Assembly (NCBI GenBank): GCA_014190675.1 | Contig: BJGT01000011.1 | Span: 1-53,327 of the forward strand | DNA length: 53,327 nucleotides | Origin: Comamonadaceae bacterium | GTDB lineage: Bacteria > Pseudomonadota > Gammaproteobacteria > Burkholderiales > Burkholderiaceae_C | Direction of reading: 5' to 3' | Shown here: positions 123-17,074 of the stretch, one piece after another | Layout: each line of letters starts with the position of its first letter | How positions within the stretch are numbered: the stretch's first letter is position 1 | Program-made: the position numbers and the translations under genes | Notes under the pieces: model-generated | What the model was told of the DNA's origin: nothing | Seen by the model: only the letters and a program-made list of their open reading frames with translations | The model's database searches: none

Positions 123-164
123 ACCTACTTACTCCCGACAAATCTTTACTTAAAAGTTGCCTCT

Positions 165-183
165 TGTATCGCTAGTTGATACA
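165..183. promoter_or_regulatory. Inverted repeat ahead of higBA (probable HigA operator)
   Basis: TGTATC (165-170) and GATACA (178-183) form a perfect 6-bp inverted repeat with a 7-base spacer, ending 8 bases before the higB start codon. HigA-type antitoxins bind such palindromes in their own promoter to repress the operon. The palindrome is seen; the binding is inferred. Confidence 0.5.
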
Positions 184-191
184 CTAAAAGA

Positions 192-470
192 GTGATCAAA
201 TCATTTCGCCATAAGGGGCTACAGGCGTTTTTTGAAAAAGGCAGCAAGGCGGGCATCCAACCCCACCACGCTGACAAGCTCAATCGCCAACTGGCAGCCT
301 TGAACCAAGCCGCAATGCCGGAGCAGATGGATATTCCTGGTTGGCGGCTTCACTCTTTATCCGGTGGTTTAAATGGTCACTGGTCAGTTTGGATCAACGG
401 CAACTGGCGGTTGACCTTTATGTTCGTTGGTCAAGATGCCGTGTTGGTTAACTACCAGGACTACCACTAG
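192..470 (+). CDS. higB: HigB-type toxin (RelE/ParE superfamily)
   Basis: A 92-residue protein of the size and layout of HigB/plasmid-maintenance killer toxins, which are ribosome-dependent mRNA interferases. The N-terminus (IKSFRHKGLQAFFE) and the C-terminal beta-sheet region (NGHWSVWINGNWRLTF ... VNYQDYH) match the family pattern. The start is GTG at 192. The antitoxin gene follows 15 bases downstream in the same direction, the toxin-first order typical of hig loci. A palindrome at 165-183 probably serves as operator. The neighbouring insertion sequence suggests the pair arrived in mobile DNA. No frame disruption is visible, so the pair should be functional. Confidence 0.85.
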   Translation: MIKSFRHKGLQAFFEKGSKAGIQPHHADKLNRQLAALNQAAMPEQMDIPGWRLHSLSGGLNGHWSVWINGNWRLTFMFVGQDAVLVNYQDYH

Positions 471-485
471 ATTATTTGAAAGTTG

Positions 486-797
486 ATGATGACTATGCAC
501 AACCCTACTCACCCTGGCCTGATCATTCGTGATGACGTTTTGCCTGAACTGCAACTGAGCGTGAACGAAGCAGCAGCGCAGTTGGGCGTGTCGCGCGTCA
601 CTCTTTCACGTGTGATCAATGGGCGCTCTGCCATTACGGCCGAGATGGCTCTGCGTGTGGGTAAGTGGGTTGGTAATGGCCCTGAGATTTGGCTGCGTAT
701 GCAGGGGCAATACGACCTCTTTCAGGCGAAGAAAAAGGGTGGTCTGAAGGTTAAGAAAGCGAAGCGGCCTACGGTTGTTTCTGCCACGCCCGCATGA
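486..797 (+). CDS. higA: HigA-type antitoxin, XRE helix-turn-helix
   Basis: A 103-residue antitoxin paired with HigB. It begins in the usual HigA way (HNPTHPGLIIRDDVLPEL) and carries an XRE-type helix-turn-helix at about residues 25-60 (VNEAAAQLGVSRVTLSRVIN). The family motif GPEIWLRMQGQYDL follows, and the C-terminal tail is basic (KKKGGLKVKKAKR). ATG at 486 is preferred, although an in-frame TTG at 483 and ATGs at 489 and 495 are possible. HigA neutralises HigB by direct contact and represses the operon through the upstream palindrome. Confidence 0.87.
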   Translation: MMTMHNPTHPGLIIRDDVLPELQLSVNEAAAQLGVSRVTLSRVINGRSAITAEMALRVGKWVGNGPEIWLRMQGQYDLFQAKKKGGLKVKKAKRPTVVSATPA

Positions 798-856
798 AGG
801 TTTGAAGGCTTAAAAATGCTGCACCCTCGGTGCTGTTTGGCAGACGGTGATGCCAG

Positions 857-1246
857 TCAACCCAGCGAGTTGTCGCCACTCATATACACAAACACCTCCT
901 CAAACAGCGCGCCGCGCAGCCTAAAAAAATTGCAGTTGTGCTTGACCAGTTTGTCGCCGCCATGGGTGATGTTCTCCACCCGGAACCGGCTGGCGATGCG
1001 GTTTGGCCACTGCACCACGTGGTCAAAGTCGCCATGCCAGACCTGCGCGTAGCGGGCGTTGAGCCGCTCAAACATGGCGCGGATCTCGGTGTCGCGGCCC
1101 TGGTACAGGGTGCTGTAGGTGGCAATGGTGAAGCGGGCATCGGGCGTGAAGCAGGCCAGGGTGGCGGCCAGGTCCATACGGTCCACCGCGGCAAAGTAGT
1201 GCTCGGCCAGTTGGCTCGGGCTCAAGTCGTCAGTGGCTGGTGTCAT
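857..1246 (-). CDS. NTF2/SnoaL-like small protein of the catabolic island
   Basis: A 129-residue protein with the layout of the NTF2/SnoaL fold: an N-terminal helix pair (LAEHYFAAVDRMDLAATLACF), then the characteristic TPDARFTIATYSTLYQGRD strand-loop, and a C-terminal curved sheet ending in FEEVFVYMSGDNSLG. Members act as cyclases, isomerases or dehydratases, or as the small subunit of ring-hydroxylating oxygenases, so the fold alone does not give a reaction. The ATG overlaps the stop of the dioxygenase gene by 4 bases, making it the last gene of the minus-strand operon. A second NTF2-like domain occurs in the same island, fused to a tautomerase (4529-5092). Confidence 0.7.
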   Translation of the reverse strand: MTPATDDLSPSQLAEHYFAAVDRMDLAATLACFTPDARFTIATYSTLYQGRDTEIRAMFERLNARYAQVWHGDFDHVVQWPNRIASRFRVENITHGGDKLVKHNCNFFRLRGALFEEVFVYMSGDNSLG

Positions 1247-2088
1247 GGTGTGCTGGGTGTGGCGGGTGTGCTGGGTGCAAAACCCGCATCCTGCAGCGCC
1301 CTAAAGGCGGCCAGGGCCTGCTGGTGCTGCAGCCGGTCGGCTGGTGACAGGGCTTGTTGCAGGCGATGCTCCGGCACGAAGTGGCCAAGGTCCTGACCCC
1401 GCACGCACAGCGCATGGGGCTGCACAGCAGCCGTTGGCCGCACATGGGCCGGGATGTAGCTGATGGCCAGCCCAATGCGGCGGTCGCCGGTGTCATTGGC
1501 GCCTGAGGCGTGCACCAGGTCGGTGTGGTGCAGCGACATCTCACCCGCGCGCAGTGGCATGGCGCAACCGGTCTCGGCATCAAAGCGCTCGCTGATGCCC
1601 TGTCCGCGCCGGATCATGTTCATCGGCTCGGGCTTGTCATCGTGCGCAATGCTGCCCCAGCGGTGGCTGCCGGGCAGGGCTCGCATGCAGCCAGCGGCCT
1701 CAGATGCGTCCGACAAGGCCACCCAGGCGGTCACGTGCAGGTGCGGCGCCAGGTAAAAGTAGGTGCTGTCCTGGTGCCAACGCACAAAGGCGGCACTGTT
1801 CGCCTCTTTCAGGAACAGGGTGCTGTGGTAGACCAGAATGTCCGGCCCAATCAGGTCCTCCACCGCGTCCAAGATGCGGGGGTGGTGTACCAAGCGGTCA
1901 GCCCAGTCAAACAGCAGGTAAGACTTGGACTTTTCGGGGAAGTCAATCGGCGCGCCCCGGGCCGCTTCCCAGGCCTCAAGCTCGGCCCGTGCGGCCTGCG
2001 CTTCGGCAGTGGACAGCACCGGCACCGGGCAAACAAAGCCGTCGCGCTCATAGGCCGCCACCTGCGCCGGGCTCAGGCATTGGCTCAT
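1243..2088 (-). CDS. Phytanoyl-CoA dioxygenase (PhyH) family Fe(II)/2-oxoglutarate oxygenase
   Basis: A 281-residue PhyH-family protein. The iron-binding HxD is visible in RWHQDSTYF (about residue 115), and the distal His/2-oxoglutarate Arg region is HHTDLVHASGANDTGDRR (about 195-210). The sequence GCMRALPGSHRWG between them is also typical of the family. Such enzymes hydroxylate an unactivated carbon using O2 and 2-oxoglutarate. ATG at 2088 is chosen because it gives the usual family length and overlaps the racemase-like gene by ATGA; the longer open frame upstream is a shadow of that gene. In this island it may hydroxylate a ring or side chain so that later enzymes can open it (inference). 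Confidence 0.85.
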   Translation of the reverse strand: MSQCLSPAQVAAYERDGFVCPVPVLSTAEAQAARAELEAWEAARGAPIDFPEKSKSYLLFDWADRLVHHPRILDAVEDLIGPDILVYHSTLFLKEANSAAFVRWHQDSTYFYLAPHLHVTAWVALSDASEAAGCMRALPGSHRWGSIAHDDKPEPMNMIRRGQGISERFDAETGCAMPLRAGEMSLHHTDLVHASGANDTGDRRIGLAISYIPAHVRPTAAVQPHALCVRGQDLGHFVPEHRLQQALSPADRLQHQQALAAFRALQDAGFAPSTPATPSTP

Positions 2089-2858
2089 GGTTTGCCGGCA
2101 ACCTGCTGTTGGGCGGCCGCCATCATGGCTTCGAGCATGTCCAGCCGTGGGTGCAAGGGTTTGGGGTAGGCCTGGCGGCTCTGGCGCAGGCCCAGGCCCA
2201 GCGCGGCTTCGGCCATCTTGTAGCTCAAGGGGCCGGGGTTGATGACCGGCACCGGCAAGCGCGCTTCCAGGTAGGCATGGGCCTGGTGCATGGTGGTGGA
2301 GCCCAGGATCAGCACCTCGGCGCCGTCGACCTCGATCGCCAGCCGGGCCGCTGCTTCGAGCAGTGGAAACACCGCGTCTTCCTTGCCCGACAGCAGGCCC
2401 TGGTTGTCGGGCGGCACCTCGATCGCTCGCACCGAGGCGCACTTGTGGTGCAGACCCAACTCATCCAGCGCCTTTTTGTACAGCGGCTTCCAGCGGCTGG
2501 CCATGGTCAGGATGGAAAACCGGTCGCCCAACATCAAAGCGGTCAGCATGGACACCTTGCCGGGGCCGAACACCGGGATATCCAACACGCTGCGCAAAGC
2601 CGCCACGCCCGAGTCGCTCATGGTGTCGATGCAAACCGCGGCGTAGCCCTCGTCCTGCGCGCGGCAACCGGCCTCGAAGATGGAGGCGTCGGCCAGCACA
2701 AAATCATGGTGGCTGGAGTAGTTGACTGGCCCGGCCTTGACGCAGCGGTAGTCAAACACCAGCCCGGGGCCGAACTGCAGGCCGGCCAGTTGCTGCTGGC
2801 GCAGCAGCAGGTTGTCGGCCGACATGGCGAAGGGGACGATGACCAGTATCTTTTTCAT
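2085..2858 (-). CDS. Asp/Glu/hydantoin racemase superfamily protein, second Cys replaced
   Basis: A 257-residue protein starting MKKILVIVPFAMS, with the two-domain layout of the Asp/Glu/hydantoin racemase family. The first catalytic cysteine is present (YAAVCIDTMSDSG, about residue 75). The second, expected in a LGC-type motif of the C-terminal domain, is Ser in ILGSTTMHQAH. Two-base racemases need both cysteines, so this enzyme may be a one-base isomerase, a hydrolase or a decarboxylase instead (inference). It overlaps the PhyH gene downstream and lies 46 bases after the isochorismatase-family gene. The context suggests action on a hydantoin-like or carbamoyl/amide intermediate. Confidence 0.8.
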   Translation of the reverse strand: MKKILVIVPFAMSADNLLLRQQQLAGLQFGPGLVFDYRCVKAGPVNYSSHHDFVLADASIFEAGCRAQDEGYAAVCIDTMSDSGVAALRSVLDIPVFGPGKVSMLTALMLGDRFSILTMASRWKPLYKKALDELGLHHKCASVRAIEVPPDNQGLLSGKEDAVFPLLEAAARLAIEVDGAEVLILGSTTMHQAHAYLEARLPVPVINPGPLSYKMAEAALGLGLRQSRQAYPKPLHPRLDMLEAMMAAAQQQVAGKP

Positions 2859-2904
2859 AGCAAACTATTCAATGGTGACGTGGCTTAGCAGCACTTTTCC
2901 TTGA

Positions 2905-3582
2905 TTACGCCACCGCAGACTGCAGCTCAGCCAGCGCCTCGTCGCAAGAACGCACCCGGCCAAACAGGCGCTGGAAGTTGCGCATGGTCACCTGGTGCAG
3001 GTCTTCGTGGGTGGTGCCGCAGGCGTCTTCCACCAGGGTCACGCCGTAGCCGCGGTCAGCGGCTTCGCGGGCGGTGGTTTCGACGCACATATTGGTCGAG
3101 ACCCCTGTCAGGTACAGCTGCTCGCAGCCCAGGGCGCGCAGCAGGCTGTCGATGTTGGTGGAGGCGAAGGCGCCGATGGTGGTCTTGCGCAGCACGTGTT
3201 CGCCGGGCAGGGGCTTGAGCTCGTCCAGGATCTCGTGCTCGCGGCTGCCTACAAAGTTGCGGAACTCGGTGAACAGGCGGCGCATGTGCAGCGGCGCATC
3301 CAGCGCGTCGGCATGGGCTGCGCCAATGGTCACGTGCAGCACCGGCCGGCCCAGCTGGCTAAAGTGCGTGCGCAGCCGCAGCGTGTTGGGCAGCACCTGC
3401 TGTTCGATGCGTGCAAAGCGGTAGTCGGCCACGCGGGAGCCCTCGGCCTGCAGCTTGCGCGCCAGCGCGCCCTGGCGAGAGCCGGTGGCGTACTGCATGT
3501 CGATCATCACCAGCGCCGCGCGCGACAGGTCGATGGGGCGCTCGGTCATGTAGGCGCGGATGTAGTCGGCAGGGGCATTCAT
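2905..3582 (-). CDS. Isochorismatase-family cysteine hydrolase
   Basis: A 225-residue protein of the isochorismatase/nicotinamidase/N-carbamoylsarcosine amidase superfamily. The catalytic triad is visible: Asp in ALVMIDMQYA (about residue 28), Lys in LRKTTIGAF (about 140) and the nucleophile Cys in TGVSTNMCVE (about 170). Such enzymes usually hydrolyse C-N bonds of amides or carbamoyl groups. ATG at 3582 gives the normal family start and overlaps the upstream deacetylase stop by 4 bases, so translation is probably coupled. It differs clearly from the second family member at 6964-7650, which suggests two separate amide-hydrolysis steps. Confidence 0.85.
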   Translation of the reverse strand: MNAPADYIRAYMTERPIDLSRAALVMIDMQYATGSRQGALARKLQAEGSRVADYRFARIEQQVLPNTLRLRTHFSQLGRPVLHVTIGAAHADALDAPLHMRRLFTEFRNFVGSREHEILDELKPLPGEHVLRKTTIGAFASTNIDSLLRALGCEQLYLTGVSTNMCVETTAREAADRGYGVTLVEDACGTTHEDLHQVTMRNFQRLFGRVRSCDEALAELQSAVA

Positions 3583-4508
3583 GACGGTTCTTTCTGGCCC
3601 GCCTGTGTGGCGGGCTGGGTTTGTTGGCGGTAGCTGGCAATGATCTCGGAGCCGGTGGCGCACCAGACGCCGCTGTGCGACAGCACATAGTCCAGCGCCC
3701 GTGCCAGGTACTCGATGCGGTGTGGCTGGCCCATGATGAAGGGGTGGACCGCGATGTTCATCACCTGGCCGCTCACGGCACCTTCGGCGTACAGGGTGTC
3801 GAACTCGTCGCAGATTTTCTGGGCAAAGGCGGCGCCCTCCTGGCCGCGCCGCCAGGCGATGCTGTCATTGATCTCCATGCTGTAGGGCAAAGAGTACAAC
3901 TCACCCTGTCGCACTTGGATAGGGGTGGGCTGGTCGTCGTGGTACAGGTCACACAGGTAGCCGATGCCGGCTTCGGCCACCAGGTCGGGGGTGTTCAGGG
4001 TGTTGGAGGCGGCCGGTGAAAACCAGCCCGGCAGGCCGCGCCCGGTGAACTGCCGGTGGATGTGCTGGCATTCGTCAATGGCGGCGCGTTCGTCGGCTTC
4101 GCTCAGGTTCCAGTGGTAACGCGTGTTGTACAGGCCGTGCGACATGAACTCCCAGCGGCGCTTGAGCATGGCCTCGGCAATCTCGGGGTACATCTGCAGC
4201 ACCGCCATCGACAGCGACACGGTGCAGGGCACCTGAAAGCGGTCAAACACCTCCATCAGCCGCCAAACGCCCACGCGGTTGCCGTAATCGCGCAGGCCGT
4301 AGCCCAGGATGTCGGGGTGCGGCAGCCGGGGCCAGGGGTCGCGTACACGGATGAGTTCGGGCAAAAACTCGTAGTGCTCGATGTTGGGCGCCACCCACAG
4401 CGCCACCCGGGCGCCGCCGGGCCAATGCAGCGGCGGCCGCTCGGGTGCGGCCGAGTAGGCGATGCGCTCAGGCACAAGCTGATTTGCAGGCATGATCGGT
4501 GTTTTCAT
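3579..4508 (-). CDS. PuuE/allantoinase-like polysaccharide deacetylase family, paralogue A
   Basis: A 309-residue NodB-fold protein of the PuuE (cofactor-free allantoinase) branch. It shows HWPGGARVALWVAPNIE near residue 30, the DYGNRVGVWR motif, FMSHGLYNTR with the conserved His, an SPAASNTLNTPDLV segment and VHPFIMGQPHRIE near the C-terminus. PuuE relatives open cyclic amides such as allantoin. Two paralogues (5103-6056 and 6053-6967) lie in the same island. The start is ATG at 4508, although ATG 4493 is possible. Its 5' end faces the plus-strand tautomerase gene with only 20 bases between, so any separate promoter must lie inside a neighbouring coding region. Confidence 0.85.
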   Translation of the reverse strand: MKTPIMPANQLVPERIAYSAAPERPPLHWPGGARVALWVAPNIEHYEFLPELIRVRDPWPRLPHPDILGYGLRDYGNRVGVWRLMEVFDRFQVPCTVSLSMAVLQMYPEIAEAMLKRRWEFMSHGLYNTRYHWNLSEADERAAIDECQHIHRQFTGRGLPGWFSPAASNTLNTPDLVAEAGIGYLCDLYHDDQPTPIQVRQGELYSLPYSMEINDSIAWRRGQEGAAFAQKICDEFDTLYAEGAVSGQVMNIAVHPFIMGQPHRIEYLARALDYVLSHSGVWCATGSEIIASYRQQTQPATQAGQKEPS

Positions 4509-4528
4509 ATCGACACGGGGAGACCGAC

Positions 4529-5092
4529 ATGCCAGTGATTGCCATTACCTTGTTGCCAGGCTATGGCGCCGAGACCGAGGCCCGGCTGGTGCAGCGGGTG
4601 GCGCTGGCCGCCCGCTCGGTGATTGCCGCGCCGGCCGCCGGCACCACCGTGATGGTGCACCACGCCAGCACCTATCAGCGCGATGGCCGGGTGGTCACCG
4701 CCGGTGGTGCCGCGCGACCAGTTGCCAGTGCGCTGGTGCGCCGGTTTTTGGACCACATGCAAGCGCGTGAGCTGACCCAGGCGCAGCAGTTTCTGGCACC
4801 AGAGTTTGTGATGCGTTTCCCGGGTGGCGCCACCTTGCACCGCCTCGAAGAACTGGTGCAGTGGGCAAAAACCCGCTACCAGCGGGTGGCCAAAGTGTTT
4901 GACCAGTTTGACGAGTGCTGGACCGACCAGGGCGCCGTGGTGTACTGCGCTGGCACGCTGGAAGGGATCTGGCCTGACGGCTCGGCCTTTGCGGGCGTTC
5001 GCTTCATTGACCGCTTTGTGCTGGTCGACGGGCTGATCCGCCAGCAGGACGTCTGGAACGACCTGGCCGAAGCCCGCCCCGCCGCCGCCTGA
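4529..5092 (+). CDS. Tautomerase-NTF2/SnoaL fusion protein, opposite strand to the island
   Basis: ATG at 4529 follows a good ribosome site (GGGGAG, 4517-4522) and is followed at once by Pro (MPVIAITLLPGYG). After Met removal this gives the N-terminal Pro used as catalytic base in 4-oxalocrotonate tautomerase-fold enzymes. Residues 1-63 form that domain, although no Arg equivalent to Arg11 of 4-OT is seen. Residues about 70-180 form an NTF2/SnoaL-like domain (ALVRRFLDHMQARELTQAQQ ... RFIDRFVLVDGLIRQQDVW). The fusion of a tautomerase with an SnoaL domain suggests two consecutive isomerisation or dehydration steps on an enol/keto intermediate (inference). It is the only plus-strand gene between 857 and 7650, tucked between two minus-strand genes with gaps of 20 and 10 bases. 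Confidence 0.75.
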   Translation: MPVIAITLLPGYGAETEARLVQRVALAARSVIAAPAAGTTVMVHHASTYQRDGRVVTAGGAARPVASALVRRFLDHMQARELTQAQQFLAPEFVMRFPGGATLHRLEELVQWAKTRYQRVAKVFDQFDECWTDQGAVVYCAGTLEGIWPDGSAFAGVRFIDRFVLVDGLIRQQDVWNDLAEARPAAA

Positions 5093-5102
5093 AGCGCTGG
5101 CC

Positions 5103-6056
5103 TCAGGCCTGGGCTGCGGTCCAGGCATCCAGAATCTCGCTGCCGGTGGCGGCCCACACACCACGGTGCGCCATGATGTGTTTGAGCGCCTGCTCTAGCG
5201 CGCCGATGCGGTAGGGCTGGCCGATCACCCAGGGGTGCAAAGAGATGGCCATTACCCGGCCACCCTGGGTGGCGGACTCGCGGTACAGCAGGTCAAACTG
5301 GTCGCACAACTGGTCACGGAAGTCATCCTCGGTGTGGTGGTTCTGCACCAGGATGGTGTGGTCGTCGATGTCGATCGGGTGCGGCATGGCGTGCAGGGTT
5401 TTGGCCGGCGTGTGCATGGGGTAGGGCATGTCGTCATTGACCCAATCGCACACATAGTCCAGCCCGGCCTCACCCAGCAGCGCCAGCGTGTTGGCCGATT
5501 CCGACTTGGCCGGTGACAGCCAGCCGCGCACCGGCTGTCCCGAGGCCTGGCGCAAAATGGCCAGGGTGCTGCTGATGAGCTGGGCTTCGTCGTCCGGCGC
5601 CAGCCCGGCGTGGTGCAGGTGGTCCATGTCCAGGCCGTTGGCGATCACCTCCCAGCCTTGCCCGGTGCAGGCCTCGAGCAGACTGGGGTAGCGCAGCGCC
5701 ACCGCTGCATTGACCGCCACCGAGGCCCGGATCTGGTGCTCGGCCAGCGCCTGCATGATGCGAAAAATACCCACCCGGTTGCCGTAGTCGCGCAGGGTGT
5801 AGTGGCGCAGGTCTGGGTAGGCCGTCATCATGGCGCCCGGTGGCTTGAAGGGCACGCCCTTCATATTCAGCGGAAACCACTCCAGCGCCGGCACCACCCA
5901 CAGCGCCACCCGGGCGCCGCCCGGCCACTGCACCGGTTTGCGCTTGGGCAACATGGACCAGTCGTAGTGACTGTGGTCCATGCCGTAGCGGCGCAGCGGG
6001 TACTCCAGGTGGGCATCGGGCAGGCCCGCCTTGACGGTCTCGGGGGCGGCGCTCAT
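5103..6056 (-). CDS. PuuE-like polysaccharide deacetylase family, paralogue B (altered active-site motif)
   Basis: A 317-residue paralogue of the two neighbouring PuuE-like proteins, sharing VQWPGGARVALWVVP, LRDYGNRVGIFRI, GWLSPAKSESANTLALL and LHPWVIGQPYRI. Where paralogues A and C have SHG in the FMSHG/FYSHG motif, this protein has IANGLDMDHLH, so the conserved His is Asn. This suggests a different substrate or a changed mechanism. The start at 6056 overlaps the stop of paralogue C by ATGA, so the two are almost certainly co-translated. It converges on the tautomerase fusion gene with a 10-base gap. Confidence 0.85.
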   Translation of the reverse strand: MSAAPETVKAGLPDAHLEYPLRRYGMDHSHYDWSMLPKRKPVQWPGGARVALWVVPALEWFPLNMKGVPFKPPGAMMTAYPDLRHYTLRDYGNRVGIFRIMQALAEHQIRASVAVNAAVALRYPSLLEACTGQGWEVIANGLDMDHLHHAGLAPDDEAQLISSTLAILRQASGQPVRGWLSPAKSESANTLALLGEAGLDYVCDWVNDDMPYPMHTPAKTLHAMPHPIDIDDHTILVQNHHTEDDFRDQLCDQFDLLYRESATQGGRVMAISLHPWVIGQPYRIGALEQALKHIMAHRGVWAATGSEILDAWTAAQA

Positions 6057-6967
6057 GGGCTGTCTCCTGCCGGCTGCGCGGCAGCAGCAAAGGCGTCGAA
6101 ATAATGGGTGTTGAAATGCTGGGCAATCTCGCGCCCGGTCGCCAGCCAGACCTTGTCGTGGCTGGTGATGTAGGACAGCGCCTCTTCAAAGGCCGCCATG
6201 CGGTAGGGCTGACCCACCAGGTAAGGGTGCAGGGGAATGCACATCACCGTGCCGGATTGCTCACCCTCTTCATACAGCCGGTCGAACTGGCGTTTGAGGA
6301 TGTCGGCATAGCGCCGCGGCTGCACCAGGTTGACGTTGTAGACGATGGTGTCGTTCATCTCCAGCGAATAGGGCACGCTGGTTAGCCGGCCCTGGCGCAC
6401 CTTGACCGGGCCTGGCTGGTCGTCATGGAACAGGTCGCACACATAGGTCAGGCCCATCTCGGCCACCAGGTCCAGCGTGCGCTCTGTGTAGGTCAGGGCT
6501 GGGGCCAGCCAGCCGTCCAGCTTTTGGCCGGTGTACTGGCGCACGGTGTCGATCGAGTCCTGGATCACGGCGCGTTCCTGCGCCTCGGTCATGCCCATCA
6601 GGTAGCGCGTGTTGTAAGTGCCGTGCGAGTAAAACTCCCAGCCCTTGTCGGCGCAGGCCTGGATCACCTCGGGGTGGTGCTGGCACATCGCCACATTGAG
6701 CGAGACGCTGCCGCGCATATTGCAGCGCTGCATGGCCTCTAACATGCGCCAGAAGCCGACCCGGTTGCCGTAGTCGCGGTACGAGTAGTTCAGCACATCG
6801 GGCGCCGGCCGGGCCCAGGCGGCACGCGCCGGGTTTTTGGGCGGGTTGAGTTCATAGAACTCGACATTGGGCGCCACCCAGAACGCCACCCGGGCGCCAC
6901 CCGGCCATTCGATGCGCGGGCGCTTGTTGTAGGGCAGGTAGTCGTAAAAGCCGGGGTCGCGCTTCAC
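6053..6967 (-). CDS. PuuE-like polysaccharide deacetylase family, paralogue C
   Basis: A 304-residue NodB-fold, PuuE-like protein. Visible motifs are EWPGGARVAFWVAPNVE, YRDYGNRVGFWRM, EFYSHGTYNTRY (conserved His present), GWLAPALTYTERTLDLV and LHPYLVGQPYRM. PuuE-type proteins open ring amides without a metal, while classical CE4 deacetylases need a TxDD motif that is not seen here. ATG at 6967 overlaps the stop of the upstream isochorismatase-family gene by 4 bases, and its own stop overlaps paralogue B in the same way. The start context resembles paralogue A more than B, so A and C may be the more recent duplicates (impression only). Confidence 0.85.
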   Translation of the reverse strand: MKRDPGFYDYLPYNKRPRIEWPGGARVAFWVAPNVEFYELNPPKNPARAAWARPAPDVLNYSYRDYGNRVGFWRMLEAMQRCNMRGSVSLNVAMCQHHPEVIQACADKGWEFYSHGTYNTRYLMGMTEAQERAVIQDSIDTVRQYTGQKLDGWLAPALTYTERTLDLVAEMGLTYVCDLFHDDQPGPVKVRQGRLTSVPYSLEMNDTIVYNVNLVQPRRYADILKRQFDRLYEEGEQSGTVMCIPLHPYLVGQPYRMAAFEEALSYITSHDKVWLATGREIAQHFNTHYFDAFAAAAQPAGDSP

Positions 6968-7650
6968 CGGCCAGCCCCTACCGCCGGGGCCACCTGCTGC
7001 AGTTGGGCCAGCGTGTCGTCGATAGACAGCACATCAGCGTATTTGACGACCATGTCGTACAGATTGGCAAAATGCGGACCTTCATGCTTGTCGGCCACGC
7101 ACTCCTCGGGCACGATGGTGCGGTAGCTGCGCGACAGGCTGTCAACCACGGTGGCCCGCACGCAACCCGAGGTGGAGCCGCCGGTCACCACAACGGTGTC
7201 GACCCCATGGAAGTTGAACACCGAGCCCAGGTTGGTCTCAAAAAAGGCCGAGGCCATGCGCTTGTTGATGACGATGTCGCGCTGGTGGTCGATCACCAGC
7301 CGGTCGTCAAACTCGGAGCGGCGGCTGCCGACCTTGATGTTCTGCAGCGAATCGGGCGTGTTGGTGCGGGTGCCCCAGACGCCACAGTCTTCGCCGGAGT
7401 CCATGTAGGCCACGTAGGTCCAGACTACCGGAAAGCCGCGGGCGCGAAACTCGGCCGCCAGCGTGTTCACATGCTCAAGCTGGCGGGGGTCGGTCTCGTA
7501 GGCGGTGGCGAACTCGCCGACGCAGGTGTAGGCTTTTTGCAGGTCGATGTTGATCAGCGCGGGCTTGCGGCCAAAGCCGAAGCGCTTGCGCGTGGGGTTG
7601 GCTTTGAACGCCTGGTAGAGCTGGCGGCTGGTCAGGTTGGATTGCTCCAT
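6964..7650 (-). CDS. Isochorismatase-family hydrolase, N-carbamoylsarcosine-amidase-like
   Basis: A 228-residue member of the isochorismatase superfamily and first gene of the minus-strand island. The triad is Asp in ALINIDLQKAY (about residue 35), Lys in IVINKRMASAFFET (about 130) and Cys in TGGSTSGCVRATVVDS (about 168). The GSTSGCVRAT form of the nucleophile motif is that of N-carbamoylsarcosine amidase-type enzymes, which release CO2 and NH3 from carbamoyl compounds. That would fit a step after ring opening by the deacetylase-family paralogues. A TTGACA-type promoter with repeated operator-like elements lies 80-140 bases upstream. Confidence 0.85.
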   Translation of the reverse strand: MEQSNLTSRQLYQAFKANPTRKRFGFGRKPALINIDLQKAYTCVGEFATAYETDPRQLEHVNTLAAEFRARGFPVVWTYVAYMDSGEDCGVWGTRTNTPDSLQNIKVGSRRSEFDDRLVIDHQRDIVINKRMASAFFETNLGSVFNFHGVDTVVVTGGSTSGCVRATVVDSLSRSYRTIVPEECVADKHEGPHFANLYDMVVKYADVLSIDDTLAQLQQVAPAVGAGR

Positions 7651-7731
7651 GGCCGGGTCTTTCTGAAGGGTTAAAGGCCGTCAGGGCCAGCAAGAGCCGG
7701 CCCGCTGGCCCAGAGCAAGAGGTGAAGAATG

Positions 7732-7760
7732 ATGATGCATCAGCCGTATTGTCCTGTCAA
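7732..7760 (-). promoter_or_regulatory. Sigma-70-type promoter for the catabolic island
   Basis: On the minus strand a perfect -35 box TTGACA (7755-7760) is followed, 17 bases on, by CATCAT (7732-7737, 4 of 6 matches to the -10 consensus). It points at the isochorismatase-family gene starting at 7650, leaving a leader of roughly 75 bases. Operator-like repeats overlap and precede the -35 box. Found by inspection only. Confidence 0.5.
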
Positions 7761-7789
7761 TAGAACAATATGGACTGAACAATATGGAC
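7747..7789. promoter_or_regulatory. Repeated operator-like elements at the island promoter
   Basis: GAACAATATGGAC occurs twice as a perfect 13-base direct repeat (7763-7775 and 7777-7789), spaced 14 bases start to start. A third, inverted partial copy, TATTGT (7747-7752), sits beside the -35 box; it is the reverse complement of the ACAATA core. This spacing and the overlap with the promoter suggest a binding site for a transcriptional regulator not encoded in the adjoining genes (inference). The rest of 7651-8004 holds no convincing gene. Confidence 0.5.
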
Positions 7790-8004
7790 AGGGTGGAATG
7801 TAGGCATCCGATACGGGGGCAGTTGGTTGGAACGCGAGCACTAAAAACCGTGCCGGCCTGACCACACACGCACAGTGGCGATGAAGGGCCAGCGTGATGG
7901 CAGAGGCGGTGGCTCTTAGGCACAGTGGTCAAATGATCAGGCTTGGACTATCGAGACCTGCTCGCCGGGCGCTTAAATAACAGCGTTGAAATCTGACTAA
8001 AAAA

Positions 8005-8463
8005 ATGAGCAACATCACTATTCGCCAGGCTATCTTTACAGACCTCGACAACATCGCAGAACTGTTTGACCAGCACCGCATGCTTCAAGGCAAGAACAGC
8101 GATGTTTTCGCTGCCCGTGCATTCCTGCGGGAAAGGTTTAACCATGGCGATTCCGTCGTCTTCATAGCCCAAAAAAATTCGGAGGCACTGGGATTTGCCC
8201 AGCTGTATCCAAGCTATTCGTCCACCTCGTTGGCCCGGGTTTTTATCCTGAACGACCTGTTCATTGCCGAGCCCGGTCGACGCCAAGGCATGGCGACCAA
8301 ACTGTTGGCTTCTCTGGAGGCCTACGCATGGGCACATGGCGCCGCTCGCCTCACACTGCATGTAGACAAAAGTAACCTGTCCGCCCAAGCCCTCTACAAA
8401 GACCGGCGCTGGAGCGAAGACCAGCAGTTTTTCATGTACCACCGATTTCCAGACGGCAACTGA
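8005..8463 (+). CDS. GNAT-family N-acetyltransferase
   Basis: A 152-residue GNAT protein. It opens with the usual IRQAIFTDLDNIAELFDQH segment, has the beta4 strand FILNDLFIAEPGRRQGMATK carrying the acetyl-CoA pyrophosphate-binding R/Q-x-x-G-x-A pattern, and ends with LHVDKSNLSAQALYKDRRW, the C-terminal N..A..LY signature. The substrate cannot be told from sequence. It stands alone on the plus strand behind the catabolic island, and the start codon ATG 8005 follows a short non-coding stretch with no obvious strong ribosome site. Confidence 0.85.
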   Translation: MSNITIRQAIFTDLDNIAELFDQHRMLQGKNSDVFAARAFLRERFNHGDSVVFIAQKNSEALGFAQLYPSYSSTSLARVFILNDLFIAEPGRRQGMATKLLASLEAYAWAHGAARLTLHVDKSNLSAQALYKDRRWSEDQQFFMYHRFPDGN

Positions 8464-8514
8464 GCTTGCTAGCCCTGGTTAATCAAGCCCCAGCCCAAGC
8501 CCACACCCTGATTC

Positions 8515-8841
8515 ATGGCACGCGGCAAGCATTACCATGTCTATGTGATTGAGTTGTCGCACGAGGTTTTGCGGCGGCCCCGCTTCATCAAGTCAAACCC
8601 TGGCTATGTGGCAGGCAAGCCCTGCGTGTATGTGGGGTTGACTGGCCTGGATCCCGACATTCGATTCGACAAGCACAAGGCGGGCATTCAGGCAAACAGC
8701 TATGTGCGGGACTACGGTTTACGACTCTTGCCCGCACTCTACGAACTCTACAACCCCATGCACTATGACGAAGCGCAACGCCTGGAGGTGGAGTTGGGAA
8801 TCGACCTGCGCGAAGGGGGCTTTGGGGTGTGGCAGGCCTGA
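8515..8841 (+). CDS. Small GIY-YIG-like protein
   Basis: A 108-residue protein beginning MARGKHYHVYVIEL. The pair of strands HVYVIEL and CVYVGLTG, followed by RFDKHKAG and later DEAQRLEVELG, follows the order of GIY-YIG nuclease motifs (two V-Y strands, Arg/His on the helix, a later Glu). The domain would span about residues 6-95 with no added binding domain. Proteins of this type are common next to mobile or accessory genes, but no function is established for this branch. The call as a nuclease-like fold is inferred from the motif order. Confidence 0.6.
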   Translation: MARGKHYHVYVIELSHEVLRRPRFIKSNPGYVAGKPCVYVGLTGLDPDIRFDKHKAGIQANSYVRDYGLRLLPALYELYNPMHYDEAQRLEVELGIDLREGGFGVWQA

Positions 8842-9071
8842 ACAGCGTTTCCCCGGGTTACCGGCTCACCCGAAGGCAGGTCAATGCTTGCGCTTGGGCC
8901 GTGTCGCCTAAGCCTCGCCGGTGCGGGGACGTTTGCTGCACGCCAGACCCCCAATGAACAATCTTGGATGGAGGCTCCATATGGCTCCTTGCCCCTATCG
9001 GGGCACGGCGTATCAAGAATAAACTGCTGGGCTTCGCCCGCCTGGGGCCTGTATGAACATTGGGTATCAAT

Positions 9072-9107
9072 TTGCAAAATGTCAGAAATAAATTTAAAAT
9101 TCTGACA
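9072..9107 (+). promoter_or_regulatory. abiE promoter with autoregulatory palindrome
   Basis: TTGCAA (9072-9077) and TAAAAT (9095-9100) are spaced 17 bases and form a good promoter. A perfect 8-bp inverted repeat, TGTCAGAA (9080-9087) and TTCTGACA (9100-9107), straddles the -10 box. AbiEi antitoxins are known to repress their operon by binding inverted repeats in the promoter. The distance to the antitoxin ATG at 9122 is 14 bases. The sites are seen; their use is inferred. Confidence 0.6.
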
Positions 9108-9121
9108 AATGGAGCCCGTGC

Positions 9122-9715
9122 ATGAGCAAACTTGTCCAATCCATCGTTGCTGCTGCGCAAGCCTTGCCTGAAGGCGGTCTGCTTTCGCCGAAGGAGTTCT
9201 TGCATCTGGCATCAAGAGCCGCAGTCGATCAGGCGCTGACACGTCTGACGCGTGAGGATAAGCTTTTGCGCGTAGGACGTGGCGTCTACGCCCTGCCGGT
9301 GCAGGGTCGGTTTGGGGCGCGTCCCCCGTCCACTCAAACTGTGGTGGAAGCGATTGAGGCGGCCAGTGGTGAGGTGGTGGTGCCCAGCGGCGCTGCTGAA
9401 GCGAATGCCTTAGGGTTGACGACGCAGGTACCGGTACGGGAGGTTTTTCTGACCTCGGGTCCTTCTCGCAAGTTGCGCCTGGGTCTTCAGGACATAGAGC
9501 TCAAACATGGCAGGCCTTGGCAGCTACTGATGGGCAAGCGTCCAGCGGGCATGGCCATTCGTGCGTTGGCTTGGTTGGGGGCAGAGCATGCTCCTTCGGC
9601 GCTCAAAATCCTGCATTCAAAGTTACCTACCGCCGAATGGGAAGCCATGCGCGCCGCTCGCGCTGCGATGCCAAGCTGGATGGCACGTGCCTTCAGTGAG
9701 GTGGTTTTTGTCTGA
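9122..9715 (+). CDS. abiEi: AbiEi-family type IV antitoxin/repressor (DUF6088-like)
   Basis: A 197-residue protein with an N-terminal winged helix-turn-helix (LLSPKEFLHLASRAAVDQAL ... LTREDKLLRVGRGVYALP, about 20-60), typical of the AbiEi/DUF6088 antitoxins, followed by a domain with VVPSGAAEANALGLTTQVPV. In type IV systems the antitoxin opposes the nucleotidyltransferase toxin without binding it and represses the operon through its winged helix domain. The toxin gene overlaps its 3' end. A perfect palindrome overlaps its promoter. Confidence 0.82.
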   Translation: MSKLVQSIVAAAQALPEGGLLSPKEFLHLASRAAVDQALTRLTREDKLLRVGRGVYALPVQGRFGARPPSTQTVVEAIEAASGEVVVPSGAAEANALGLTTQVPVREVFLTSGPSRKLRLGLQDIELKHGRPWQLLMGKRPAGMAIRALAWLGAEHAPSALKILHSKLPTAEWEAMRAARAAMPSWMARAFSEVVFV

Positions 9716-10751
9716 GTCGTGGTTCTCACTTAGCCGCGCAGATCAGGCCGAAGCACTTGAAGTGGCGGCAAGCCGGACTGGGCGGCCCGCCCATTTGCTG
9801 GAAAAAGATATCTGGGTCGTCTGGGCCTTGTCGGCCATCTACAGCTCAAGGCTGGCAGAAAAATTGACCTTTAAAGGCGGCACATCGCTCTCCAAGGTCT
9901 ACAAAATCATTGATCGGTTTTCTGAAGACATTGACCTGACTTACGACATCCGGGAGTTGGTGCCAGACCTGTTGCAAGGCGGCAATCCAATTCCTGTTTC
10001 GGCAAGTCAGGAAAAGAAAATCACAAGCGCGATTCGGACACGATTGCCGGAGTGGATCGCTCGCTCGATCAAGCCGGTTCTTGAAGACTCATTGATCAGC
10101 AGCAAGGCGCAAGCTGGTTTTCGAGTTGATGGCAAGGATCGCCAGAAGCTGATCATTGACTATCGTGCTGTGAAAACAGGCACTGGCTACGCTGCGACAT
10201 CGATACAACTGGAGTTCGGCGCCCGCGCCACGGGGGAGCCCAACAGCAGGCATACAGTTGATTGCGACATAGCCCCAGTCATCGAGGGCGTCGAATTCCC
10301 CGTTGCAACTCCCTTGGTTATGGCTGCCGAGCGCACGTTCTGGGAAAAGGCAACGGCCGCACACGTTTACTGTTTTCAGGGTCGCTTGCGCGGCGAACGA
10401 TATTCCCGCCATTGGTACGACTTGGCCGCTATGGCAAAAACCGGTCATTCAGCACAGGCCGCAGGTGATCACCATTTGGCCAGAGCGGTGGCCGAACAAA
10501 AGTCGGTCTTCTTTGCTGAAGAAGATGCAAATGGATTCAAGGTCGACTACCTTAAAGCCGTGACCTCTGGACTACAACTGGTGCCCGTAGGTGCAGCATT
10601 GGCTGCATTAGAGAGAGATTACAACGCCATGTCGGAGGACGGTTTACTGGCGCTTCATCAGCCATCGTTTGGTGAGATCATGGAAAAGTGCCGGGCCATA
10701 CAAGATGAAGTGAATCACAAAGCTCGGGAAGGGCAATGGAGTCGCAGTTAA
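9708..10751 (+). CDS. abiEii: AbiEii-type nucleotidyltransferase toxin
   Basis: A protein of about 347 residues with the nucleotidyltransferase motif KGGTSLSKVYKIIDRFSEDID (G-G-T-S-L-S-K ... S-E-D-I-D, about residues 55-75), preceded by LEKDIWVVWAL. This is the hallmark of AbiEii/AbiGii and MenT-like toxins, which modify tRNA by adding nucleotides. Later conserved residues include AAERTFWEKATAAH. The start is uncertain: TTG at 9708 behind GAGGTG overlaps the antitoxin by 8 bases, and GTG at 9696 is an alternative; ATGs far upstream lie inside the antitoxin gene in another frame. The pair forms an intact abortive-infection/toxin-antitoxin module. Confidence 0.85.
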   Translation: MSESWFSLSRADQAEALEVAASRTGRPAHLLEKDIWVVWALSAIYSSRLAEKLTFKGGTSLSKVYKIIDRFSEDIDLTYDIRELVPDLLQGGNPIPVSASQEKKITSAIRTRLPEWIARSIKPVLEDSLISSKAQAGFRVDGKDRQKLIIDYRAVKTGTGYAATSIQLEFGARATGEPNSRHTVDCDIAPVIEGVEFPVATPLVMAAERTFWEKATAAHVYCFQGRLRGERYSRHWYDLAAMAKTGHSAQAAGDHHLARAVAEQKSVFFAEEDANGFKVDYLKAVTSGLQLVPVGAALAALERDYNAMSEDGLLALHQPSFGEIMEKCRAIQDEVNHKAREGQWSRS

Positions 10752-10804
10752 AAACAGAAGTGATTCACGGATTTGAACCGCCGCCCGTAAATCGATGGAA
10801 TTGC

Positions 10805-11503
10805 TCACATTGAAATGGCAGTTCCCAGCAGAGTCAGTTGATGCGAATAGATGCCAAGGCTAGAAGTCCCCGATAAGGCATGCCGTGCCAGCGCTTGTGG
10901 TGCAAGAGCGGTATGGACCAGAGTCGCGAAGGCATCCTCATTGGCCCAGCCCTCGACGAGCAATACGATGGGGGGCACCAAGTTGGCAGCACCTCGAGCA
11001 CGCTGCTCGGCGTTGACATAACCACTCGCGGTGCGATCGGCTACCAACAAGCTGACTGAGCCAATTCCTGGGCTACTGGCCAGACCGGGCACGATGATTT
11101 TTTGGAAAGCTTCCAGGTGTGCGGCTGCCTGCGCTTCTTCAATGTCATAGCGCAGTGTCGCCATGAGACCTCCTTGCCCTATGCCCGATTCGGACGCTGT
11201 GCGCTTTACCAGCACTTGGCACAATGAGCGTGCAACATTGCGAAAGTGCTTGACCGTCGACAGTGTGCGCGGGCTTGGGCTGTCAAGCCGCGCCTTGTAG
11301 TCGGCGCCGCGAACAACCTCCGCTGATTGCGTCTCGTAGAGGTTGAAAAACTGCAGGTCGGCCGATCTTGCGATAAAGCGCCGTCCGCTGCAAAAGCCAG
11401 GGATAGAAACTCGCTCGGGCATGTGCTCCTCGCCGTGCCATGCATAGAACTCTGCCAGGCCCTCAGGCGCGATGTCATGCCAAATGGCAATTGCACCGCT
11501 CAT
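10805..11503 (-). CDS. Dimeric alpha/beta-barrel-like protein, function unknown
   Basis: A 232-residue protein I do not recognise at family level. Its N-terminal half (IAIWHDIAPEGLAEFYAWHG, then EEHMPERVSIPGFCSGRRF) has the W-H ... E-H-M-P-E-R pattern of EthD/ferredoxin-like dimeric alpha/beta-barrel proteins. The second half (MATLRYDIEEAQ ... LVEGWANEDA) looks like a second, more diverged repeat of the same fold. It is the last gene of the minus-strand operon and overlaps the DapA-like gene by 4 bases. A role in processing the imported compound is likely but unproven. Confidence 0.6.
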   Translation of the reverse strand: MSGAIAIWHDIAPEGLAEFYAWHGEEHMPERVSIPGFCSGRRFIARSADLQFFNLYETQSAEVVRGADYKARLDSPSPRTLSTVKHFRNVARSLCQVLVKRTASESGIGQGGLMATLRYDIEEAQAAAHLEAFQKIIVPGLASSPGIGSVSLLVADRTASGYVNAEQRARGAANLVPPIVLLVEGWANEDAFATLVHTALAPQALARHALSGTSSLGIYSHQLTLLGTAISM

Positions 11504-12423
11504 GCCAGGAGGCCCTGGGCATTCATCAGGTGCCGAATATGCGCTCGCTCGGCATCGTCAATGCCAAGCTGTGGCTCGCGCACAGCCGCGCACGCAATCA
11601 AGCCTTGCAAGCGTAGAACCTCCTTCATTCGTGGCCGAAAGTCTCGGATCGGCGAACGCCAGCAATAACGGGCTATCGGACCTAGCTTGCGCCATATTGC
11701 CTGAGCCTTGGCGATATCACCTCCTTGCACGCCTTCGTTCATTTCAACGAGTTCTCGCGTGAAGGTGCCGGCAAAGCCGATCAGCGCGCCGCTGCAGCCC
11801 ATCATCATGGCTTCGAATATGAAGGTATCGCTGCCGGTCAGGACCCCGATGCTGCGAGGAAGTGCCGCAGCAACTTCAATGGTCGACAGTGTTTGTGCCA
11901 CATCGAAGGAGGCCTCTTTGATAGCGATCACCTCGGGTATATCGGCCACCCGCCGCACGATGTCGGGCGAATAATCAGGCCCCCAACCTTTGGGGAACTG
12001 AAAGCAGATGATCGGCAAATGCGCGGCATCGGCAATAGCCTTGTGATAGCGATAAATCATCTCGCCGGGCACTGGCGCGCCCGAGAAGGTCGGGAAGGGT
12101 GGAAACACCGGAAAGCCTTCAACCCCCATCCGGGCAAAGCGCTCGGCCTTGGCTGCGGCGCTGCGCGTCGAGCCGGCAACAATACCCGAAAGAAAGGGTA
12201 CACGCCCCCTAATCACGCCAATGCAGGCGCGAATCACCTGGTCCTGCTCGTCTTCGCTCAGCGCAATCACCTCGGAGGCATCCATATTCATGGCGATACC
12301 TGCTGGATTCTGGTTTGCAAGCCAGTCCATGTAACGCTCAAGGCCGGCCCAATCGATTTCCCCATCGGCATGCATAGGTAAAAAAGGGGCGGCAATTACG
12401 CCATGGCAGGGTCTTTTGAGCAT
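11500..12423 (-). CDS. DapA/NAL-superfamily aldolase with altered active site
   Basis: A 307-residue TIM-barrel protein of the dihydrodipicolinate synthase/N-acetylneuraminate lyase superfamily. The Schiff-base Lys is in EVIAIKEASFD. The usual GTTGE motif reads NMDASE, and the catalytic Tyr of the YN(x)P segment is replaced in ICFQFPKGWG. It is therefore not a housekeeping DapA but a diverged lyase/aldolase acting on a 2-oxo acid-type substrate. ATG 12423 gives the family start (LKRPCHGVIAAPFLPMHADG) and lies 10 bases after the ATPase stop. The operon with an importer and IclR regulator points to catabolism. Confidence 0.83.
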   Translation of the reverse strand: MLKRPCHGVIAAPFLPMHADGEIDWAGLERYMDWLANQNPAGIAMNMDASEVIALSEDEQDQVIRACIGVIRGRVPFLSGIVAGSTRSAAAKAERFARMGVEGFPVFPPFPTFSGAPVPGEMIYRYHKAIADAAHLPIICFQFPKGWGPDYSPDIVRRVADIPEVIAIKEASFDVAQTLSTIEVAAALPRSIGVLTGSDTFIFEAMMMGCSGALIGFAGTFTRELVEMNEGVQGGDIAKAQAIWRKLGPIARYCWRSPIRDFRPRMKEVLRLQGLIACAAVREPQLGIDDAERAHIRHLMNAQGLLA

Positions 12424-12433
12424 CTGGCGGGCC

Positions 12434-13267: not shown

Positions 13268-13277
13268 GTCGACTGAC

Positions 13278-14264: not shown

Positions 14265-14299
14265 GGTTCTATCCTTTTGTGTTGGTTAAAAAAAAGACC

Positions 14300-16444: not shown

Positions 16445-16502
16445 AACTTATTTATTAGTAGAACTCTGTTCGAATATTAACATTTTGGGACTTCATGTCA
16501 AC

Positions 16503-16541
16503 AAGGAGCCGACCTAAGGAGCCGGCCTAGGGAGCCCGAAG
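16503..16541. repeat. Three tandem 13-base repeats
   Basis: The units AAGGAGCCGACCT (16503-16515), AAGGAGCCGGCCT (16516-16528) and AGGGAGCCCGAAG (16529-16541) follow each other without spacer, the first two differing at one base. They lie upstream of the IclR gene and downstream of the copper operon. The remaining bases 16445-16711 show nothing else convincing. Confidence 0.45.
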
Positions 16542-17047: not shown

Positions 17048-17074
17048 AACATGTTCCTCAAATGATTTGAAAAA

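Follow-up and report, generated by a model that had tools for sequence, protein, structure and literature searches.

A conserved two-part bacterial locus predicted to use cyclic imides, possibly hematinic acid

Which compound is degraded by an island of nine genes that combines isochorismatase-fold amidases, PuuE-like hydrolases, a dioxygenase homologue and a racemase homologue? The island occupies positions 857-7650 of a 53,327-nt stretch of DNA, here called the window, from a Comamonadaceae bacterium (GCA_014190675.1, contig BJGT01000011.1). An earlier note, made from the letters alone, had read it as a catabolic system for a cyclic nitrogen-containing compound. We suggest that the island is one half, the upper one, of a two-part locus that uses a cyclic imide as a source of carbon and nitrogen, with its lower half on contig C52 of the same genome; we give this reading a probability of about 55%. 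The enzymes belong to known families; the route that would join them is a prediction.

The core of the island consists of three minus-strand genes. Isoch1 (6964-7650) encodes an isochorismatase-fold amidase (PF00857), predicted to act on half-amides of the maleamate type; PuuE1 (6053-6967) encodes a PuuE-like cyclic amide/imide hydrolase of the polysaccharide-deacetylase fold, the predicted ring opener; and PuuE2 (5103-6056) encodes a second PuuE-like protein, the partner of PuuE1. A scan of genome contigs with an alignment of PuuE1 and PuuE3, a third protein of the family, gave at least 582 confirmed relatives, and the best 80 loci were kept as the basis of our counts. A simple gene caller missed genes and lumped PuuE4, a fourth PuuE-like protein, with PuuE2, and tblastn counts were used instead; since many of the loci are short fragments, all of them are lower bounds. 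An Isoch1 relative (at least 45%) was found in 75 of the 80 loci, and a PuuE2 relative (at least 38%) directly followed PuuE1 in 77. In four of the five loci that lack Isoch1, PuuE1 lies at the contig edge. The earlier note had left it to genome comparison whether the neighborhood is conserved at all; it is. The same order is found again in other genomes, so the gene set is not a chance assembly. By record title, the loci come from Alpha-, Beta- and Gammaproteobacteria, Cytophagales, Spirosomataceae, Acidimicrobiales and Thermomicrobiales, and the core is thus found in several phyla, in some cases with a hydratase and lyase next to it. The earlier note's view of a catabolic locus is supported. 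Of 398 Pseudomonadota genomes drawn evenly, 11 had a match at E <= 1e-60; the window's own genome is one of them, and two others reach only 42-44% identity. A phage origin was considered and discarded, as phage records held only three weak matches to PuuE2.

What accompanies the core elsewhere led to the second half of the locus. Downstream of Isoch1-PuuE1-PuuE2, the rhizobial loci encode a hydratase of the aconitase family with two subunits, an ABC importer of the branched-chain type, a lyase of the PEPM/ICL family and an FAD_binding_2 protein. Among the 80 loci, the large hydratase subunit is present in 28, the lyase in 27, both in 23 and either in 32, placed upstream, downstream or on the opposite strand relative to the core in different loci. 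The importer binding protein, the MmgE/PrpD protein and the lyase each have their best match in the window's genome on C52. The rhizobial hydratase query matched best on contig C21 (54%), with a split match of 40-42% on C52, and the C52 hydratase gene is 73% identical to that of Chitinasiproducens (L024). C52 carries, in order, the genes for the lyase (1685-2635), a TcuA-like flavoenzyme, the small and large hydratase subunits, a GntR/UTRA regulator, an AtuA-like protein, an SDR, the importer, PuuE4 (13829-14794) and an MmgE/PrpD protein (14586-16145). The nine genes of the island, which the earlier note took for the whole system, are therefore only part of it, the importer, regulator, hydratase, lyase and flavoenzyme being on C52.

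In Comamonadaceae relatives with contiguous halves, the importer, the GntR regulator, a hydratase of the LeuCD/DmdAB/HacAB type, a PrpB-like lyase, a TcuA-like flavoenzyme and an MmgE/PrpD protein lie together with the upper half, and a genome of the window's genus (G469) has the whole locus on one contig save PhyH. Fourteen Comamonadaceae genomes were chosen for the upper half, not every one with all nine window genes; 12 of them have a large-subunit relative of at least 71%, which in 8 of the 12 is on the upper-half contig. In a sample of 100 relatives, comprising 60 genomes of the window's genus (its own included) and 40 of its order, a hydratase of at least 68% occurs in three of the four genomes with a PuuE1 of at least 78%, versus 8 of the 96 without (Fisher p 0.004). 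Two further matches to PuuE-like proteins were seen in the window's genome. The first 20 kb of C52 (L110) have a second PuuE4 match (83%) at about 17106, near the right end of the contig and apparently partial, and a third contig (L129, G000:C44) encodes at 4410 a protein 46-47% identical to PuuE1, near an MmgE/PrpD relative.

The two halves are also linked by a palindrome, TTGTYC-N8-GRACAA, which was seen on comparing upstream regions. In the 3.69-Mb window genome (275 contigs) it occurs exactly twice, and the reversed pattern, used as a control, does not occur. One site, TTGTCCTGTCAATAGAACAA, is at 7749-7768 of the window, about 100 bp upstream of the Isoch1 start; the other is at 13797-13816 of C52, between the importer and PuuE4. 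These are the only copies in the 53-kb window and in L110, respectively. The pattern was built from four sites of the window genome and G469, which are not independent support, whereas the count over the whole genome and the remaining loci are. A set of 22 extended loci was defined as those in which the gene caller found any of Isoch2, TautNTF2, PhyH or NTF2. Exact sites occur in 18 of the 22, with 26 sites in 323 kb versus 0.2 expected from Markov shuffles; L021, L023, L029 and L039 have no exact site. Three of the 58 other loci (L027, L032 and L036) also carry the palindrome, and these are short Comamonadaceae-type fragments with a PuuE1 of 83-85%. Of 89 stretches examined (the 80 loci and nine others, among which L126 repeats L031), 79 could be used, and 20 of these have the site, exactly or with one mismatch, upstream of Isoch1. 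We infer that the palindrome is the operator of the GntR/UTRA protein encoded on C52, and both halves appear to be under this one regulator.

The chemistry of the upper half depends on what PuuE1 and Isoch1 do. By its fold and its conserved acidic and His residues, PuuE1 is a member of the PuuE-like cyclic amide/imide hydrolase superfamily, and an activity on imides is suggested by its context. Its model matches 1z7a, 3cl6, 3s6o, 3rxz and 3qbu (E 3e-18 to 3e-14), and E36, H115, D182, D183 and H247 are invariant across 15 alignment rows. In the available part of PMC3084791, the natural substrate of PuuE is termed a small cyclic imide. According to the available part of PMC9304392, deletion strains and metabolites led to the assignment of HxnM, a protein of the PuuE/HpPgdA type, as a cyclic imide hydrolase, with the amidase HxnN acting next, and a cyclic imide hydrolase homologue of Pseudomonas putida also falls in the PuuE-like family. 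The earlier note had counted three ring openers. The three PuuE-like proteins are present, but the count may be too high, as window PuuE2 has Asn where PuuE1 and PuuE3 retain His; the position is variable among PuuE2 relatives, and in the window lineage PuuE2 may be a partner without catalytic activity of its own.

Judged by motifs and closest similarity, Isoch1 belongs to the maleamate/N-carbamoylsarcosine amidase group. Its best PDB matches are 4l07/4l08 (114/110 bits), followed by the N-carbamoylsarcosine amidohydrolases 26st/1nba (109/102 bits) and by 3ot4/3uao (89 bits), the next entry scoring 58 bits. The PDB listing names 4l07/4l08 and 3uao isochorismatase-family proteins; we take them to be the maleamate amidases Ami and NicF, respectively. 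Isoch1 has the same fold and Asp/Lys/Cys motifs as these proteins and has TSGCVRATVVD in common with 4l07. The motif Asp, Lys and Cys, presumably the catalytic residues, are kept in the listed variants of 71 relatives.

These similarities also allow a different reading, in which the PuuE-like proteins open a hydantoin- or allantoin-like ring, the isochorismatases strip the carbamoyl group and the racemase homologue epimerizes the substrate. In sequence, PuuE1 is indeed closest to allantoinase PuuE, Isoch1 scores about as well with N-carbamoylsarcosine amidohydrolase as with 4l07 (109 versus 114 bits), and the fold nearest to that of Race is allantoin racemase. However, all four PuuE-like proteins fall below the allantoinase PuuE cut-off of TIGR03212 (424.6 bits), with 152.6 bits for PuuE3, 147.8 for PuuE1, 126.0 for PuuE2 and 91.0 for PuuE4, and the hydratase, the PrpB-like lyase and a glutaryl-CoA dehydrogenase found beside some of the clusters would have no role in such a route.

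The racemase homologue itself speaks against the ureide route. Race (2085-2858, minus strand) has the Asp/Glu/hydantoin-racemase fold, and its structure model is nearest to allantoin racemase, but both catalytic cysteines are replaced, by Thr79 and Ser187. In the 29 rows of at least 50% identity aligned to 3qvj (the window gene itself and the same G018 gene twice included), the first Cys position is Thr in 28 and Ser in one (L012), and the second is Ser in all 29; Cys76, three residues before Thr79, is invariant. Going by these residues, Race is not expected to racemize. A racemase role, for which the structure model gave only the fold, was rejected. The resemblance to the allantoin pathway thus amounts to shared folds of PuuE1 and Race, with PuuE1 under the allantoinase cut-off and the Race cysteines lost, and neither family scores nor gene content support an allantoin or uric-acid locus. 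Considering that the hydratase and lyase have no ureide role and that the racemase cysteines are lost, we favor hydrolysis of the half-amide of a diacid over removal of a ureide carbamoyl group, and regard the ureide route as distinctly unlikely. Ring opening followed by amide removal, as the earlier note had it, is still the most economical reading of PuuE-like and isochorismatase proteins; its ureide/hydantoin class of substrate has less support, and carbamoyl stripping is the less likely reaction.

With an imidase and a half-amidase upstream and a hydratase and a lyase downstream, the simplest class of substrate is a substituted maleimide. We infer every enzymatic step, as well as the substrate and the pairing of regulator and site. 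The branched-chain-type ABC importer would take up the imide, PuuE1 with PuuE2 would open the maleimide ring to a half-amide, and Isoch1 would release ammonia to leave a substituted cis-butenedioate. The two-subunit hydratase of the HacAB/LeuCD/DmdAB type would then add water, and the PrpB-like lyase would split the resulting 2-hydroxy acid into a 2-oxo acid and a carboxylic acid. We hold this scheme from imide through diacid to lyase to be reasonably probable. PuuE3, PuuE4, Isoch2, PhyH, the SDR, AtuA, the TcuA-like flavoenzyme and MmgE/PrpD may handle other imides or side-chain forms.

Family scores on C52 are compatible with the last two steps. The hydratase passes TIGR02087 (LeuD/DmdB; 146.8 versus 108.95 bits) and TIGR01343 (homoaconitate hydratase family; 412.1 versus 385.7), just misses TIGR02086 (407.4 versus 410.15) and does not reach the HacA_Meth and LEU2 equivalogs. 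The lyases of C52, L024 and L093 contain PKRCGH, of which we take KRCGH, with its catalytic Cys, to be the motif of ICL/PEPM-superfamily lyases. Among PDB entries, the lyase matches one named carboxyvinyl-carboxyphosphonate phosphorylmutase (187 bits), methylisocitrate lyases (187-172), petal death protein (171) and dimethylmalate lyase (157). The lyase and MmgE/PrpD families are also those of the methylcitrate cycle, but the C52 lyase is below the PrpB equivalog cut-off (286.6 versus 354.4 bits), and the TcuA-like flavoenzyme is below that of tricarballylate dehydrogenase (113 versus 369).

Hematinic acid, 3-(2-carboxyethyl)-4-methylmaleimide, is a breakdown product of heme and chlorophyll. 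By the scheme above it would give pyruvate and glutarate, and the glutarate would enter metabolism through CoA transfer and glutaryl-CoA dehydrogenase (GCDH, gene gcdH). These products were predicted before the identity of gcdH was tested, although an unidentified acyl-CoA dehydrogenase of L093 had already been seen then. On a plasmid of Burkholderia plantarii (L113), the acyl-CoA dehydrogenase beside the cluster is a GCDH, accompanied by EtfA, EtfB and a CaiB protein. It scores 735 bits with Burkholderia GCDH, 584 with 4w9u (named only acyl-CoA dehydrogenase), 574 with the GCDH entries 1sir/1siq and 371-335 with further GCDH-named entries, against 237 or less with other acyl-CoA oxidases and dehydrogenases. 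Relatives 64-85% identical, with RSMMSVQSS and YEGTHD kept or nearly so, adjoin the cluster in 6 of the 80 loci, whereas 0.34 would be expected in 1.27 Mb of loci at one copy per 3.8 Mb. In L042 and L043, gcdH-caiB lies upstream of Isoch1; in L063 and L084, gcdH is divergent from the hydratase, as it is in L072 and L093 with one gene between. A CaiB gene of this type is present in only two of the six. In Chitinasiproducens palmae, etfB-etfA-gcdH-caiB follows the lyase just past the edge of L024, in the same order as on the Burkholderia plasmid. The acyl-CoA dehydrogenases near L112, L080 (two), L077 and L076 were rejected as gcdH at 24-28% identity.

The gcdH gene beside the cluster points to glutarate as the product, for which we would give even odds, and through it to hematinic acid as the substrate, which we propose tentatively. 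The tricarboxylate-named families of the lower half (homoaconitate, methylisocitrate, tricarballylate, methylcitrate) would fit an opened ring with a propionate side chain, although the C52 proteins fall short of these families' equivalog cut-offs. In Sphingomonas JE1 and Acidiphilium, genes for a CaiB protein and an HMG-CoA-lyase-like protein stand beside Isoch1-PuuE1-PuuE2-LeuCD, and no PEPM lyase is annotated in the Acidiphilium stretch; the pair is predicted to provide an alternative, CoA-dependent cleavage of the substituted malate.

The same enzymes could instead act on methylethyl-, methylvinyl- or dimethylmaleimide or on citraconimide, to give pyruvate or 2-oxobutyrate and a C2-C4 acid, not glutarate. 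In keeping with this, 2,3-dimethylmalate lyase is also among the matches of the lyase, and the small hydratase subunit belongs to the LeuD/DmdB group; several PuuE and Isoch paralogues suggest more than one imide, and gcdH is found only in 6 of the 80 loci and in one more just past its stretch. That gcdH adjoins the cluster in three arrangements, and that families of the lower half have tricarboxylate-named members, argue for hematinic acid instead, and we consider these other maleimides an unlikely choice.

A third possibility is that a six-membered, glutarimide-type imide is opened and deamidated straight to glutarate, the hydratase and lyase belonging to a neighboring pathway. The precedent is nicotinate catabolism in Aspergillus nidulans, where, according to the available part of PMC9304392, a PuuE/HpPgdA-type imide hydrolase (HxnM) is likewise followed by a nitrogen-releasing amidase (HxnN). 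Further, gcdH and CaiB genes adjoin the cluster in Ramlibacter, Chitinasiproducens and Burkholderia, and L131 has the lower half without the core. However, the hydratase and lyase adjoin Isoch1-PuuE1-PuuE2 in several arrangements, and the shared palindrome ties the importer/PuuE4 junction of C52 to the window operon. The Aspergillus system also differs in its six-membered hydroxyglutarimide and in that HxnM is nearest to HpPgdA whereas PuuE1 is nearest to PuuE, and the available part of PMC9304392 describes no hydratase-lyase tail. We regard this possibility as improbable.

Several observations weigh against the proposal that the locus serves a cyclic imide and in particular hematinic acid. 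Direct transfer of the imidase label to PuuE1 is weakened, since PuuE1 is nearer to allantoinase PuuE (162 bits with 1z7a and 155 with 3cl6) than to HpPgdA (79 bits with 3qbu), the relative that PMC9304392, in its available part, links to cyclic imidases. Three Bacteroidota loci (L067, L068 and L071) have no adjacent PuuE2, and L067 also lacks Isoch1 with PuuE1 away from the contig edge; the L067 contig ends at the PuuE2 position, whereas L068 and L071 extend 10 kb further. Of the 42 loci of at least 18 kb, 24 show a hydratase or lyase and 18 neither. In six of these 18 they lie just past the edge of the stretch and in L043 on another contig, which leaves eleven. Some of the eleven have quite other neighbors, so that the core alone probably serves other substrates there. 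A glutamine-synthetase-like gene in L077 and L080, nitrilase-like and aldehyde dehydrogenase genes in L061 and HyuAB in L115 likely indicate such substrates. The two halves do not always go together either: in G018, a genome of the window's genus, there is a PuuE1 of 99% but nothing that matches the hydratase, the L016 genome has no large-subunit match and the L040 genome one of only 34%, and eight genomes of the same genus have the hydratase without a PuuE1 relative of at least 78%, so the lower half occurs apart from the upper. The gcdH gene adjoins the cluster in a minority of loci, and the six loci (two Ramlibacter, four Rhodospirillales-type) have close relatives among them and therefore do not count as six independent events. 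In three further carriers (the L022, L026 and L034 genomes) gcdH is on a different contig, where no other searched gene adjoins it. It is the only match at E <= 1e-90 in each of ten genomes checked, and as the sole strong match it may serve lysine catabolism. Race, PhyH, TautNTF2, NTF2 and AtuA have no step in the proposed route, and no protein of the locus has an established activity.

Some of these loci have features of their own. The glutamine-synthetase-like gene lies at 7745-9154 in L077, just upstream of the core, and at 6649-8058 in L080, with a lyase-type gene between. In L115, a Salipiger abyssi plasmid, Isoch-PuuE1-PuuE2 stands beside two amidases, HyuA/HyuB-type hydantoinase genes, a sulfurtransferase and metC (8765-23557), and the core probably acts on another substrate there. 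Downstream of PuuE2, L084 (11954-16416) and L093 (12683-16166) have tandem VOC/glyoxalase-like paralogues with weak Glyoxalase matches and a RidA-like gene; the tandem could belong to an upstream ring-cleavage step.

The remaining genes of the island are less constant. PuuE3 (3579-4508, minus strand), a hydrolase with 47% identity to PuuE1 in the alignment, has relatives (at least 55%) in 20 of the 80 loci; Race, too, is present in 20. Isoch2 (2905-3582, minus strand; 16 of 80) is a second isochorismatase-fold amidase, closer to the biuret hydrolase/RutB type than to the Isoch1 group. PhyH (1243-2088, minus strand; 13 of 80) is a homologue of Fe(II)/2-oxoglutarate-type dioxygenases and optional in the locus: in G469, L018 and L028 it has no match, and the space between Race and NTF2 is too small to hold it. 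NTF2 (857-1246, minus strand; 13 of 80) is a SnoaL-like protein. TautNTF2 (4529-5092, plus strand; 17 of 80 at 45% identity or more) joins a tautomerase-like N-terminus, beginning MPV at 4529, to a SnoaL domain. The Pfam match of this fusion is confined to the SnoaL half; the tautomerase half, as proposed in the earlier note, is suggested by the MPV N-terminus, by 29-35% tblastn matches in L009 and L010 and by the RefSeq name of the L010 relative, 'tautomerase family protein'. For the rest, Pfam agrees with the families named in that note (SnoaL, PhyH, racemase, two isochorismatases and three PuuE-like proteins), and the eight minus-strand genes and one plus-strand gene lie where it had placed them. 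L009 (6345-16427) and L010 (10782-17806) have Race pairs with a PEPM-type lyase, a tautomerase-type gene, a flavoenzyme and MmgE/PrpD, and no PuuE match; the L009 lyase is annotated as oxaloacetate decarboxylase, and L009 has HyuA/HyuB and a cysteine hydrolase in place of PuuE.

Could the window half be a functionless remnant of an older locus, decayed or assembled by chance? The locus is split over two contigs, and related loci are disturbed. In G018, NTF2-PhyH-Race lies about 14 kb from TautNTF2-PuuE2-PuuE1-Isoch1 (L117 and L015, G018:C31), and no PuuE3 or Isoch2 match was found in the G018 stretches read. In L016, which among named relatives is nearest to the window set, extra DNA at about 5700-9530 with a 513-aa minus-strand frame, absent from the window, lies between Isoch2 and Race. 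However, all nine window frames are open, Isoch1, PuuE1, PuuE3, Isoch2 and PhyH retain their active-site motifs, and both halves carry the operator-like site, which makes decay highly improbable. Four-base overlaps occur at five of the seven minus-strand junctions (NTF2/PhyH, PhyH/Race, Isoch2/PuuE3, PuuE2/PuuE1 and PuuE1/Isoch1), and at the other two there is no overlap; four of the five overlaps are ATGA and one is GTGA. GC content at third codon positions is 0.78-0.88 in the eight island genes scored (PhyH not among them) and 0.49-0.72 in the frames listed for 8005-21443, which sets the island apart in composition from the DNA on its right. The frames at 8005-10751, read from their translations, are a putative acetyltransferase and an AbiE-type pair. 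To the left, directly beside NTF2, is a small gene pair at 192-797, presumably a HigB/HigA (HigBA) toxin-antitoxin, and window positions 151-806 match the start of the NTF2-PhyH-Race contig of G018 at 98.9% identity.

Parts of the predicted route recall known systems. In nicotine and nicotinate degradation, unsubstituted maleate from the pyridine ring is converted to fumarate by a Cys-dependent isomerase; unlike in these Ami/NicF systems, a hydratase and a lyase follow the amidase in the present locus. Anaerobic nicotinate fermentation employs dimethylmaleate hydratase DmdAB and dimethylmalate lyase Dml. That system likewise passes a substituted maleate through a two-subunit hydratase of the aconitase type and the resulting malate through an ICL/PEPM lyase, but the upstream chemistry is different, with no imidase or amidase. 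The earlier note knew of no pathway with this combination of genes, and we found none described in full-text searches of an open-access library, from which subscription papers are mostly absent; nor did we find there any description of genes for the bacterial use of maleimides or hematinic acid. Both kinds of compound, maleimides and hematinic acid, are reported to occur in senescent leaves and lake sediments; in the leaves studied hematinic acid was detected and maleimides were not (available part of PMC7318184).

We therefore put forward, with some reserve, a dedicated pathway for hematinic acid and related maleimides, in which an imidase, a half-amidase, a methyl-homoaconitate-type hydratase and a methyl-homoisocitrate-type lyase would yield ammonia, pyruvate and glutarate. 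It may form one GntR regulon with its ABC importer, and its carriers would be freshwater, soil and plant-associated bacteria, with the genes on chromosomes and plasmids. If this is true, the last stage of tetrapyrrole breakdown would gain a gene set, an importer and a regulator, and PuuE-like 'polysaccharide deacetylases', 'isochorismatases' and '3-isopropylmalate dehydratases' would be re-annotated in many genomes.

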